DNA from: Pseudomonas sp. Os17
GTDB lineage: Bacteria > Pseudomonadota > Gammaproteobacteria > Pseudomonadales > Pseudomonadaceae
Assembly: GCF_001547895.1 (NCBI RefSeq)
Contig: NZ_AP014627.1
Coordinates: forward strand, 313,501 to 377,500
Reading direction: 5' to 3'
Length of the DNA: 64,000 nt
The notes under the pieces were generated by a model that saw only the letters and a program-made list of their open reading frames with translations, was not told the DNA's origin and made no database searches. The translations under genes and the position numbers were made by a program. Every line of letters starts with the position of its first letter. Within the stretch, counting starts at the first letter, position 1. Shown here piece by piece: positions 15,125 to 27,843 of this stretch.

Positions 15125-15208
15125 TGTAGGAGCCGGCTTGCCGGCGAAGGGGCCCTTGAGCCCTGTGCAAGAATTTCCGGCCTCTTCGCTGGCAAGCCGG
15201 CTCCTACA
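15125..15208. repeat. Paired inverted REP-like element
   Basis: TGTAGGAGCCGGCTTGCCGGCGAAG (15125-15149) and its inverse TTCGCTGGCAAGCCGGCTCCTACA (15185-15208) form a REP doublet between the convergent cysQ and thioesterase genes. Confidence 0.9.
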
Positions 15209-22424: not shown

Positions 22425-22664
22425 GTTGGAGGGCCTGTGTCCTTGAAAACGGTCATTTGCTGCAAAAAAGCAGCATAGCTTGTCGACATGGCGTCTGAGG
22501 TGCAATAGGCACCATCAGCCGATTTCACCGCAAGCGGTCGGAAATTTCGCAAAGTGAAGATTTGGGGCTGGGACGGTTACTGTCTGTTTCCCCGTTTTTT
22601 GGCTTGCACAACGCCTTGCGCAATGGCGATATAAGCGGCCGATAACAATTCCAGGGGTCGTTGT
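22425..22664. promoter_or_regulatory. Divergent promoter region of rmlB and the fusion gene
   Basis: This 240-base gene-free stretch separates two divergent start codons and must hold both promoters. I see no convincing -35/-10 or operator sequence. CCAGGGG lies upstream of the fusion gene start as a weak ribosome-binding site. Confidence 0.5.
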
Positions 22665-25583
22665 ATGTTGCTCGCCACCTTGATCCACCGTGCCAGTCTG
22701 CCCAGTCCCCAGGTTAGCGCGCAGCAAGCGCTGGACCTGCTGGAAACCCATTACGGCCTGCAGGGGACTCTGCAGTCCCTGGGCAGCCAGCAGGACCTCA
22801 ACTATCACCTCGACTGTCCCCAGGGGCGCTTTGTCCTGAAGATCTGTCGCGGCGACTATTCGGTCCTGGAGTTGCAGGCGCAGCACGCGGCTCTCAAGCA
22901 TCTGCAGCAACATCCCGAGCTGCGAGTGCCGAGGGTGATTCCGGCGAAGAACGGTGCGGACCTGCTGTCCCTGGAGATAGCCGGGCAAGCGCTGCACGTC
23001 CGTCTGCTGGACTATATAGAAGGGCGCTCCCTGACCCACCTGCCGCACCTGAGCGTGGAGCTGGTGGCGGGCCTGGGTCGGCTCTGCGGGCAGATGGACC
23101 TGGCCCTGGCGGACTTCCAGCACCCGGGCCTGGAGCGCACCCTGCAGTGGGATGCGCGGCATGCCCAGGCGCTGATCGGGCATCTGTTGCCGGTGATCCG
23201 CGACCCGCAGCAACGGGCCTTGATTGCCGACAGCGCACAGCGAGCCGAGCGACGGCTGCAACCTTTGCTGGCGCAGTTGCCGGTGCAGGCGATCCATATG
23301 GATATCACCGATGACAACGTGGTCTGGCAGCGCGATGCCCTGCGTCACTGGCAGTTGCAGGGGGTGATCGATTTTGGCGACCTGATCCGCACCTGGCGCA
23401 TCACCGATCTGTCGGTGACCTGCGCGGCACTGCTGCATCACGCCGAGGGCGATCCGCTGCGCATCCTTGCGGCGATCCAGGCCTATCACCAGGTCAATCC
23501 CTTGCAACGGGCGGAGCTGCTGGCGCTCTGGCCTTTGATCGTGGCGCGTGCCGCCGTGCTGGTGCTCAGTGGCGAGCAGCAGGTCAGCATCGATCCGGGC
23601 AACGACTATTCCCGCGCGAACCTGGCCCATGAGTGGGAAATTTTCCGGGTGGCCAGTTCCGTGTCTTTCGAGTTCATGGAAGCGGCCATCCTCAGCGCCG
23701 TCGGCCAGTCGCTGCCAGCCATCGGTAGCGAGGGTTTCGCCCCGTTGTTGCCGAGCCTGGTGGGCCGCGAGTTTGCCCTGATCGACCTGGGCGTGCTCAG
23801 TCCGCACTTCGAAGCGGGCAACTGGGAGCAACCGGGGATCGATGATCGGCTGCTGGCCGAAGCCGGCGCCGCCCATGGCCTGGCCGCCAGCCGTTATGGC
23901 CAGTACCGCCTGTCGCAAACCCGTCCCGACAGTGCCGAGGAGCCCTCCACCTGCGCCCTGCACGTGCAACTGCAAGTACCGGCGGGCACCGCGGTGGAAG
24001 CGCCGTTCGCCGGGGTCCTGCACCGTGGCGAGCAGGGCCTGTTGCGCCTCGATGGCCCGACCCTGAGCGTGCATCTGTGGGGTGTCGAGCCCTCCCTGCA
24101 CCCGGGCGCGGCCCTGGTCAAGGGCCAGGTGCTGGGCGCAGTGGCGGCCGATGGTCGGCTCAGGGTCCAGCTGTGCCGGGGGGCCGAACTGGACCCGCCA
24201 CTGTTTTGCAGTCCGTCCCGGGCCCCGGCCTGGCAAGCCCTGTGCCCCTCGCCGGCGGCGCTGCTGGGGCTGGCCTGCGATGCCGAACCGGAGCTGGATC
24301 CACAGACCCTGCTGGAACGCCGCGATGCCAGCTTTGCGCGCTCGCAGAAGCACTACTACGTCGACCCGCCGCGGATCGAGCGCGGCTGGCGCAATCACCT
24401 GATCGACATGCAGGGGCGTTCCTACCTGGACATGCTCAACAACGTCGCGGTGCTCGGCCATGGCCACCCACGCATGGCGGCCGTGGCGGCGCGTCAATGG
24501 TCGCTGCTCAATACCAACTCGCGTTTTCACTATGCGGCGATCGCCGAATTCTCCGAGCGCCTGCTGGCCCTGGCGCCGGACTCCATGGACCGGGTGTTCC
24601 TGGTCAACAGCGGCACCGAGGCCAATGACCTGGCGATCCGCCTGGCCTGGGCCTACAGCGGCGGGCGCGACATGCTCAGCGTGCTGGAGGCCTATCACGG
24701 CTGGTCGGTGGCGGCCGATGCGGTGTCCACCTCCATCGCCGACAACCCCCAGGCCCTCACCAGTCGCCCGGACTGGGTGCACCCGGTGACGGCGCCTAAT
24801 ACCTATCGCGGCGAGTTCCGCGGCGCGGACAGCACACCGCAGTACCTGCGCAGCGTCGACCAGCAGTTGCACAAGCTGGAGCAGCAGAACCGTCAGTTGG
24901 CTGGCTTCATCTGCGAACCGGTGTATGGCAACGCGGGGGGCATCTCCCTGCCGCCGGGCTATCTGCAGGCCGTCTACGAACGGGTCCGGGCCCGGGGCGG
25001 GGTGTGCATCGCCGATGAGGTCCAGGTGGGTTACGGGCGCATGGGCCAGTTCTTCTGGGGCTTTGAAGAGCAGGGCGTGGTGCCGGACATCATCACCATG
25101 GCCAAGGGCATGGGCAACGGCCAGCCTCTGGGCGCAGTGATCACCCGGCGCGAGATCGCCGAGGCGCTGGAGGCCGAAGGCTATTTCTTTTCCTCATCCG
25201 GCGGCAGCCCGGTCAGTTGCCGCATCGGCCTCGCGGTGCTGGATGTGATGCAGGAGGAGGGGCTCTGGGAGAACGCCCGGGTGGTGGGTGAACACTTCAA
25301 GCAACGCCTGGAAGCGCTCAAGGAGCGGCATCCGCTGGTGGGGGCGGTGCACGGTTCCGGTTTCTACCTGGGGCTGGAGCTGATCCGCAATCACCAGACC
25401 CTGGAGCCGGCCACCGAGGAAACCACCCTGCTGTGCGATCGCCTGCGGGAACTGGGGATCTTCATGCAACCCACCGGCGATCACTTGAACATCCTCAAGA
25501 TCAAGCCGCCGATGGTCACCACGCGCCAGAGCGTGGATTTCTTCGTCGACATGCTGGACAAGGTGCTGGGCGAGGATCTGTAG
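22665..25583 (+). CDS. Fused APH-type kinase / M23-like / class-III PLP enzyme
   Basis: The protein has 972 residues in three parts. Residues about 30-330 are an aminoglycoside-phosphotransferase-fold kinase with the catalytic loop HMDITDDN (near residue 211) and the DFG-like IDFGDL. Residues about 430-535 resemble a peptidase-M23 (lysostaphin-like) fold (VPAGTAVEAPFAGVLHRG...VKGQVLGAVAADGRLRVQLC), but the zinc-ligand HxH motif is replaced by LRVQL, so it should be inactive. Residues about 560-970 are a class-III aminotransferase-fold enzyme with the PLP lysine at about 814 (ITMAKGMGNGQPLG). In related proteins the kinase is hydroxylysine-kinase-like and the PLP domain is a phospholyase acting on phosphorylated amino alcohols. 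A kinase/phospholyase pair is therefore my preferred reading. It precedes aguBA. Confidence 0.82.
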   Translation: MLLATLIHRASLPSPQVSAQQALDLLETHYGLQGTLQSLGSQQDLNYHLDCPQGRFVLKICRGDYSVLELQAQHAALKHLQQHPELRVPRVIPAKNGADLLSLEIAGQALHVRLLDYIEGRSLTHLPHLSVELVAGLGRLCGQMDLALADFQHPGLERTLQWDARHAQALIGHLLPVIRDPQQRALIADSAQRAERRLQPLLAQLPVQAIHMDITDDNVVWQRDALRHWQLQGVIDFGDLIRTWRITDLSVTCAALLHHAEGDPLRILAAIQAYHQVNPLQRAELLALWPLIVARAAVLVLSGEQQVSIDPGNDYSRANLAHEWEIFRVASSVSFEFMEAAILSAVGQSLPAIGSEGFAPLLPSLVGREFALIDLGVLSPHFEAGNWEQPGIDDRLLAEAGAAHGLAASRYGQYRLSQTRPDSAEEPSTCALHVQLQVPAGTAVEAPFAGVLHRGEQGLLRLDGPTLSVHLWGVEPSLHPGAALVKGQVLGAVAADGRLRVQLCRGAELDPPLFCSPSRAPAWQALCPSPAALLGLACDAEPELDPQTLLERRDASFARSQKHYYVDPPRIERGWRNHLIDMQGRSYLDMLNNVAVLGHGHPRMAAVAARQWSLLNTNSRFHYAAIAEFSERLLALAPDSMDRVFLVNSGTEANDLAIRLAWAYSGGRDMLSVLEAYHGWSVAADAVSTSIADNPQALTSRPDWVHPVTAPNTYRGEFRGADSTPQYLRSVDQQLHKLEQQNRQLAGFICEPVYGNAGGISLPPGYLQAVYERVRARGGVCIADEVQVGYGRMGQFFWGFEEQGVVPDIITMAKGMGNGQPLGAVITRREIAEALEAEGYFFSSSGGSPVSCRIGLAVLDVMQEEGLWENARVVGEHFKQRLEALKERHPLVGAVHGSGFYLGLELIRNHQTLEPATEETTLLCDRLRELGIFMQPTGDHLNILKIKPPMVTTRQSVDFFVDMLDKVLGEDL

Positions 25584-25612: not shown

Positions 25613-25668
25613 ATTCGCCGGCAAGCCGGCTCCTACACGCCTCAGTAGGAGCCGGCTTGCCGGCGAAT
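25613..25668. repeat. Paired inverted REP-like element
   Basis: ATTCGCCGGCAAGCCGGCTCCTAC and its exact inverse are separated by only a few bases (ACGCCTCA), giving a perfect large cruciform between the fusion gene and aguB. It could block readthrough from the fusion gene. Confidence 0.92.
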
Positions 25669-25852: not shown

Positions 25853-26731
<879 letters not shown>

Positions 26732-26736
26732 ACACT

Positions 26737-27843
26737 ATGAGCACTTTGCACAGCACGCCGCGCGCCGACGGTTTCTACATGCCGGCCGAATGGGCGACCC
26801 AGACCCAGACCTGGATGATCTGGCCCGAGCGCCCGGACAACTGGCGCCTGGGCGGCAAGCCGGCCCAGGCCGCCCACGCCGCGGTGGCCAAGGCCATCGC
26901 GCGCTTTGAACCGGTGACCGTGGCGGTGTCCGCGGCCCAGTATGAAAACGCCCGGGCGCGCCTGGACGTGCCCAATATCCGCGTCGTGGAAATGTCCAGT
27001 GACGATGCCTGGGTCCGCGACACCGGTCCGACTTTCGTCATCAACCACAGCGGCGAAGTGCGCGGTGTGCACTGGGGCTTCAATGCCTGGGGCGGTTTCG
27101 AGGGCGGCTTGTATTCGCCTTGGAACCGTGACGAACAGGTGGCCAGCAAGGTGCTGGAAATCGAGCGTTGCCAGGAGTACCGCACCGAGGGCTTCGTGCT
27201 TGAGGGCGGCTCGATTCACGTCGACGGCGAAGGCACGCTGATCACCACCGAGGAATGCCTGCTCAACCACAACCGCAACCCGCACCTGTCCCGCGAGCAG
27301 ATCGAGGCGGTGCTGCGCGAGCATCTGTCAGTGGAGCGCATCGTCTGGCTGCCGGACGGCCTGTACAACGACGAAACCGACGGTCATGTGGATAACTTCT
27401 GCTGCTACGTGCGTCCGGGTGAAGTGTTGCTGGCCTGGACCGACGACCCCCAGGACCCCAACTATCCACGTTGCCGGGCAGCCATGCAGGTGCTGGAAAA
27501 CACCCTCGACGCCAAGGGCCGCACCTTCAAGGTGCACAAGATGCCGATTCCCGGCCCCTTGTATGCCACCGAAGAGGAATGCGCCGGTGTCGATGCGGTG
27601 CAGGGCAGTCAGGAGCGCAATCCCTCCGTGCGCCTGGCCGGTTCCTATGTGAACTTCCTGATCGTCAATGGCGGGATCATTGCGCCGAGTTTTGACGACC
27701 CGATGGATGCTCAGGCCAAGTCCATCCTCCAGGCGCTGTTCCCCGAGCATGAAGTGGTGATGGTGCCGGGGCGCGAACTGTTACTGGGGGGCGGCAATAT
27801 CCATTGCCTTACCCAACAACAGCCTGCGCCACAGCGAATTTGA
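26737..27843 (+). CDS. aguA: Agmatine deiminase
   Basis: The 368-residue guanidino-modifying enzyme converts agmatine to N-carbamoylputrescine and ammonia. Conserved elements are [14 protein letters not shown] (Asp-containing active-site strand), [32 protein letters not shown] (catalytic His) and the C-terminal nucleophile [14 protein letters not shown]. Together with aguB it takes arginine-derived agmatine to putrescine for polyamine synthesis or use as carbon and nitrogen. The pair is a compact two-gene operon followed by an intrinsic terminator. Confidence 0.96.

Follow-up and report, generated by a model that had tools for sequence, protein, structure and literature searches.

Among the systems closest to the one described here is the pairing of a kinase with a phospho-lyase dependent on pyridoxal 5′-phosphate (PLP). 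Hydroxylysine kinase (HYKK) and the ammoniophospholyases, in which the kinase feeds the lyase, were reportedly described by Veiga-da-Cunha et al. in 2012, and the kinase-to-lyase logic, together (it seems) with its inference from gene fusions, is said to date from that work. In humans, HYKK and the phospho-lyases are separate proteins that lack an M23 domain. A gene of Pseudomonas sp. Os17, located at positions 22665–25583 (forward strand) of the 64,000-nucleotide stretch of contig NZ_AP014627.1 analysed here (the window), appears to join such activities in one chain. It is a single unbroken frame of 972 codons in the open reading frame (ORF) analysis of the window, and specifies a kinase, an M23-like domain and a predicted PLP phospho-lyase, in that order (family NF004800/PRK06149). 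The logic of a kinase followed by a PLP phospho-lyase would be common to this fusion protein and to the HYKK/ammoniophospholyase pair. A passage of the review PMC12138971 seems, by the order of its references, to cite the 2012 work for the inference from fusions, and the kinase-lyase fusion logic seems to have been in print since that year. A literature search, with most subscription papers outside its reach, returned no characterisation of an M23-containing fusion or of PRK06148 or PRK06149. The division of the fused proteins into two types by whether the M23 site is kept or lost, found in the kinase and PLP trees alike, is new here.

We estimate at roughly three in four the probability that this chain, composed of an APH-type kinase, a zinc-less M23 domain and a member of the phospho-lyase clade, adds a phosphate to the hydroxyl of a vicinal amino alcohol and then removes it by elimination on PLP. 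Pfam matches above cut-off were obtained for APH (residues 40–275) and Aminotran_3 (residues 571–968), and the NCBIfam model NF004800, named ‘aminotransferase’, matched positions 3–971 of the 972 with 1636 bits, the curated cut-off being 973. The kinase domain and its C-lobe cover residues 1–345 (22665–23699; outer limits from a structure model), the middle domain, of M23/LytM fold, residues 350–545 (23712–24299; same model), and the class-III PLP domain residues 571–968 (24375–25568; Pfam plus sequence and fold matches in the PDB), all on the forward strand. An earlier reading of the letters of this DNA (the original prediction) had proposed such a three-part chain acting as kinase and phospholyase; the layout is confirmed by the Pfam, NCBIfam and fold matches, the motifs HMDITDDN (211–218) and LRVQL (499–503) and the lysine K814 lie where it had placed them, and its interpretation of the chemistry is supported by the comparisons below. 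The kinase would catalyse the ATP (adenosine triphosphate)-dependent O-phosphorylation of a vicinal amino alcohol, R-CH(OH)-CH2-NH2, the product of which would pass to a PLP site, either within the chain itself or in its partner subunit. There, the amine would form an aldimine with PLP, a C-H proton would be removed and the phosphate would leave; hydrolysis of the resulting enamine would render R-CH2-CHO, NH3 and inorganic phosphate. The M23-like part may serve as a structural or substrate-holding module whose own catalysis has been lost, and the protein would function in the catabolism of a hydroxylated amine.

To place the PLP part, one tree was built with 84 rows (25 of 48 plus 22 of 44 fused representatives, 24 unfused relatives, 11 aminotransferase/DGD-like sequences and two phospho-lyases from the PDB) and another with 129 rows (FastTree), including all 92 fused representatives; both placed it among the phospho-lyases. 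In the former, human ETNPPL and A1RDF1 grouped with the fused and unfused lyases, with the 11 aminotransferase/DGD-like rows lying across a branch of SH-aLRT support 100. The same two solved phospho-lyases were the best PDB matches, both by sequence and by fold. The solved chain of ETNPPL (AGXT2L1, ethanolamine-phosphate phospho-lyase; PDB 6tor) matches the PLP part only; the fusion protein differs in carrying a kinase and an M23-like domain in front, and in having H896 where ETNPPL has an arginine. A1RDF1, a phospholyase of Arthrobacter aurescens (PDB 5g4i), also matches the PLP part only, has the fold and six of seven signature residues in common with it, and stands in the tree with the unfused lyases. 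The PLP-binding lysine K814 (25104–25106; residue survey) is present, as are residues that the lyases have in common and aminotransferases lack, including the signature residue R620 (24522–24524; column comparison). At the position of K945 (25497–25499) the 11 aminotransferase-like rows have Arg (7), Ile (3) or Val (1), this Arg being the one that binds the 2-oxo acid in aminotransferases. Neither its grouping nor its conserved columns are those of an ordinary class-III aminotransferase. It is thus very unlikely that the PLP part is, as its public name has it, a 2-oxoglutarate- or pyruvate-dependent aminotransferase fused to a kinase of other purpose; the original prediction had made its phospholyase idea depend on this grouping, which turned out to be with ETNPPL and A1RDF1 instead. 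In the 84-row tree the human ETNPPL lyase domain falls among fused lyases of the other type, PRK06148, where the branching is poorly resolved; an origin of animal ETNPPL from a fused, bacterial-type gene would fit this position.

The kinase part exceeded the curated APH cut-off and bears the catalytic residues of this superfamily. K59 (22839–22841), at the presumed ATP-binding position, HMDITDDN (23295–23318), presumably the catalytic loop, and IDFGD (residues 235–239; 23367–23381), presumably the metal-binding motif, were examined in a survey of relatives; we take K59, H211, D213, N218 and D236 to be the expected catalytic, ATP-binding and metal-binding residues. Among 96 PRK06149-type relatives, H211, D213, N218 and D236 are invariant, and position 59 is occupied by K in 92 and by R in the remaining 4. 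The set of kinase residues is complete; a lack of those that bind ATP would have spoken against the original prediction. Sequence searches of the kinase part against the PDB gave nothing useful (the only matches had E values of 0.015 and 0.027), and the matches listed from a fold search made with the whole-chain model were all PLP enzymes.

The strongest sign that the two activities work in series is the kinase gene that abuts unfused lyases. Relatives of the lyase that are not fused were found at 24 loci, 23 of them distinct (L065 and L101 are one place), and were inspected with flanks of 1.5 kb. At 18 of the 23 the lyase gene has a co-directional kinase gene that directly adjoins or overlaps it, and 12 of these 18 kinases are closely related to the fused ones. 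Pfam APH was above cut-off in all 10 of the 18 kinases that were scanned. A kinase-like frame also lies ∼0.9 kb away, on the opposite strand, at L065/L101 and at L099. This arrangement bears on a further explanation, namely that the PLP part acts as a PbfA-like ammonia-lyase and eliminates a free hydroxyl, the kinase acting on a different compound. A precedent exists, since PbfA is presented in a passage of PMC8154272 as a class-III-fold lyase acting on (R)-1-hydroxy-2-aminoethylphosphonate, and the PbfA model does match the fusion protein. However, the score of 188 bits is far under the NF049939 cut-off of 525, which leaves the protein outside that NCBIfam family, its closest solved relatives are ETNPPL and A1RDF1, and the kinase genes beside unfused lyases would go unexplained. 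This explanation is therefore highly improbable, and it was set aside together with the aminotransferase on the basis of family scores, PDB matches, tree and signature residues. In two unfused pairs of Pseudomonas the surroundings could be read: at L197 the upstream frame reads like a solute-binding protein (no family match), and at L198 a flavin adenine dinucleotide (FAD) oxidoreductase and a glutamine-synthetase-like gene lie downstream, both below the cut-offs of their families. A long frame at L058, suspected of being a kinase-lyase fusion lacking M23, proved to be two overlapping ORFs.

The middle domain has the M23/LytM fold in a search with the structure model, its matches including EnvC and SpoIIQ, the LytM domains of which are not known to have enzyme activity. 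The fold is common to LytM-type M23 peptidases and LytM factors (EnvC, SpoIIQ, lysostaphin, LytM), but the fusion protein differs from the peptidases in lacking the zinc ligands and in placing the domain between two enzyme domains of small-molecule metabolism. It has none of the five M23 active-site residues, zinc ligands and catalytic histidines included: A431–Q435 (23955–23969, forward strand) aligns with the M23 residues H443 and D447 of a paralog, and R498-L499-R500 (24156–24164, forward strand) with the HxH of M23. In both the kinase tree and the PLP tree, the fused relatives fall into two clades. All five residues are kept in 47 of 47 PRK06148-type sequences; of 96 PRK06149-type sequences, 67 keep none and 29 keep one (Asp in 27, a His in 2). 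The two types were first sorted on the M23 motif, a circular criterion; a motif-free BLAST assignment made as a check agreed in 96 of 96 and 46 of 47 sequences (the exception being L172). The split is a single branch, with support of 99 and 93 in the PLP-domain tree and 98 in the kinase-domain tree. The median length of the middle region is 271 residues in the PRK06148 type vs 221 in the PRK06149 type, i.e. ∼50 residues longer in the former; Pfam M23 matches were obtained in 21 of 50 middle domains, with the types not distinguished. The PRK06148 type (NF004799) has the three-domain order of the fusion protein and its kinase and PLP residues are conserved, with Y at the position of H211 in 3 of 47 sequences and the kinase part missing in one.

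The loss of the zinc ligands fits a non-enzymatic role of the M23-like part, as judged from its residues. That this part has retained a zinc-independent hydrolysis of an amide or peptide bond, making a three-step protein, is barely credible: the site kept in every PRK06148-type sequence does argue that the domain once had a job, but its erosion in the PRK06149 type and the LytM domains not known to be active among the fold matches argue against. Such a sharp split within one fused family makes one ask which role a peptidase fold plays in an enzyme that acts on small molecules. The genome of the window holds a PRK06148-type paralog with intact M23 residues (L002 1477–4524, reverse strand; G000:C1:2599008-2602040), beside which a divergent frame resembling an AsnC-type regulator and a frame resembling a solute-binding protein were recognised by reading. 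An archaeal record (L165, Candidatus Thorarchaeota bin8) also contains a PRK06148-type fusion with intact M23 residues.

The surroundings of the gene offer hints as to the substrate. Downstream, on the same strand, lie aguB (N-carbamoylputrescine amidase; 25853–26731, its start set by homology, the long ORF beginning at 25667) and aguA (agmatine deiminase; 26737–27843, by family match). Context was examined in two samples of Pseudomonas loci, 20 taken by handle and 17 named, which may overlap, and flank length differs among loci in all context counts. In the former, aguA adjoins the fusion in 16 of 20, with aguB in between in 11 of these 16; of the remaining four, L077 stops at the fusion gene, and none of the neighbouring genes used as queries was seen at L073, L078 or L083. 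In the latter, aguA adjoins the fusion in 16 of 17, none being present in the 2.4 kb downstream of the fusion at L138. Outside Pseudomonas (38 PRK06149-type loci; L161, a partial match, was left out), a deacetylase-like gene and a polyamine-type ATP-binding cassette (ABC) transporter accompany the fusion at three loci, the two Rhizobiaceae loci that bear aguB and L118; weak deacetylase-like matches were also obtained at L182 and at the PRK06148-type locus L167. Among 33 PRK06148-type loci, aguB occurs in none and a distant aguA homolog in one. The synteny of aguA and the polyamine-type cluster of Rhizobiaceae point to amines, while regulators of the AsnC type point to amino acids such as hydroxylysine.

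The substrate could be 5-hydroxylysine (or ethanolamine), which would make the protein a fused bacterial counterpart of human HYKK plus PHYKPL or ETNPPL, unrelated to agmatine. The chemistry would be identical to that of the kinase and phospho-lyase reading, within which this alternative is nested, the substrate alone differing, and we hold it to be a serious possibility at less than even odds. It would account for the Lrp/AsnC regulators (directly upstream at five actinobacterial PRK06149-type loci and at several of the PRK06148 type) and for the amino-acid permeases or amino-acid-binding proteins near both fused types, and it agrees with the grouping of ETNPPL within the PRK06148 type. The public name ‘hydroxylysine kinase’, of untraced origin, is found in 3 of 120 listed homologs (P0069, P0073 and P0100, one source). 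The aguA neighbourhood in Pseudomonas and the aguB, deacetylase-like and transporter genes in Rhizobiaceae argue against it. ETNPPL, as a passage of PMC8233209 states, converts phosphoethanolamine to acetaldehyde, ammonium and phosphate; the genome of the window has two EutB matches above cut-off, so that ethanolamine is probably handled by a different pathway. As candidate substrate we favour a hydroxylated polyamine or hydroxylysine over ethanolamine.

Several observations weigh against the proposed two-step reaction or its link to agmatine. H896 is found in 95 of 96 PRK06149-type sequences (Y in one), while an R occupies this column in the 47 PRK06148-type sequences, in the unfused lyases and in 9 of the 11 aminotransferase-like rows, so that the substrate or the reaction may differ from that of ETNPPL. 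The class-III fold also includes transaminases, racemases, a decarboxylase and the ammonia-lyase PbfA. An abutting kinase is missing from five of the 23 unfused lyases, three of which have no kinase anywhere in their 1.5 kb flanks. Among the 18 pairs, six have a kinase that comes after the lyase and is only a distant relative of the fused ones (BLAST E values of 1e-8 to 1e-11); all six were among those recognised by Pfam APH. The fusion gene is separated from aguB by 269 bases containing a terminator-like palindrome, making a single operon with aguB doubtful and leaving one with aguBA unsupported. Only 6 of the 17 named Pseudomonas loci have aguB in between the fusion and aguA; it is missing there in 10 (L129, L131, L132, L133, L135, L137, L139, L152, L158 and L174), which makes aguA, rather than aguB, the constant neighbour. 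Of the 38 loci outside Pseudomonas, only two (both Rhizobiaceae) have aguB and none has aguA. The agmatine link made by the original prediction therefore holds for Pseudomonas synteny and finds an echo in two Rhizobiaceae, but both genes are absent from the flanks covered at 36 of the 38 other loci.

A broader scheme would treat the PRK06148 type, known from a Thorarchaeote to Bacteroidota and Pseudomonadota, as a three-step enzyme, and the branch of the window as having lost the hydrolase and taken up hydroxylated polyamines; we consider it improbable. An amino alcohol, released from an amide or peptide by the zinc M23 domain, would be phosphorylated by the kinase and converted to the aldehyde by the PLP domain. 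The window branch would keep the M23 fold as a scaffold and use hydroxylated polyamines released by AguA/AguB-type enzymes, for example hydroxyagmatine to 2-hydroxyputrescine to 4-aminobutanal. If true, this would give a pathway by which hydroxypolyamines of the plant type are broken down. Neighbouring C-N hydrolases might have made up for the lost M23 activity, but this is unsupported, few such genes lying near either type: in a Pfam tally of 25 loci per fused type (137 and 125 ORFs), the first 25 families listed included S58 (3), Amidohydro_3 (2) and Amidohydro_1 (2) among the 137 ORFs, and S9 (2) and M32 (1) among the 125. In another Rhizobiaceae group an S58-family peptidase with a peptide-type transporter stands beside the fusion. 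An aldehyde dehydrogenase lies upstream of the fusion at L192 and L188; within 4 kb it was otherwise seen only at the unfused pair L203, and was rejected as a regular neighbour.

NF004800 was above cut-off in 233 of 298 sampled Pseudomonas genomes; in a class-wide sample of 274 genomes it was so in a single one, that of the window itself, which has one copy of each fused type. In a phylum-wide sample of 299 genomes, NF004799/PRK06148 was above cut-off in 8; 36 of the 299 had a match at E ≤ 1e-120, most of those listed covering the PLP domain only. A mixed-alignment scan of genome contigs returned at least 79 loci, in Rhizobiaceae, Pseudomonas, Actinobacteria, Bacteroidota, Desulfobacterota, Chloroflexota, Acidobacteriota, others and one Thorarchaeote. 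Among 7993 scored candidates, 964 proteins had E ≤ 1e-20; the 120 listed homologs are full-length, with 81–94% identity, and many are unnamed; of those that bear a name, most are called ‘aminotransferase’. NCBI (NCBIfam) already keeps the two fused families apart, without an assigned function. A protein found in most sampled Pseudomonas genomes and named ‘aminotransferase’ is likely a two-step kinase/phospho-lyase, and correcting the name would open up to testing a predicted amino-alcohol catabolic route beside the agmatine genes. The window copy and its counterpart in Pseudomonas protegens FD6 share 94.8% identity; split or stop-containing copies occur in a few Pseudomonas genomes (G562, G348 and G484).

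Some minor features were also recorded. The palindrome between the fusion gene and aguB (25617–25664) comprises 20 pairs, with the arm GCCGGCAAGCCGGCTCCTAC; since one more copy of the arm occurs at position 15126 of the window, as in repetitive extragenic elements, it may represent a repeat element instead of a terminator. Besides aguB, the genome has a second N-carbamoylputrescine amidase above the family cut-off (440 bits; G000:C1:2661080-2661916, forward strand). An antisense open frame of 785 codons (22515–24872, reverse strand) overlaps the fusion gene, and looks like a by-product of high-GC codon usage.
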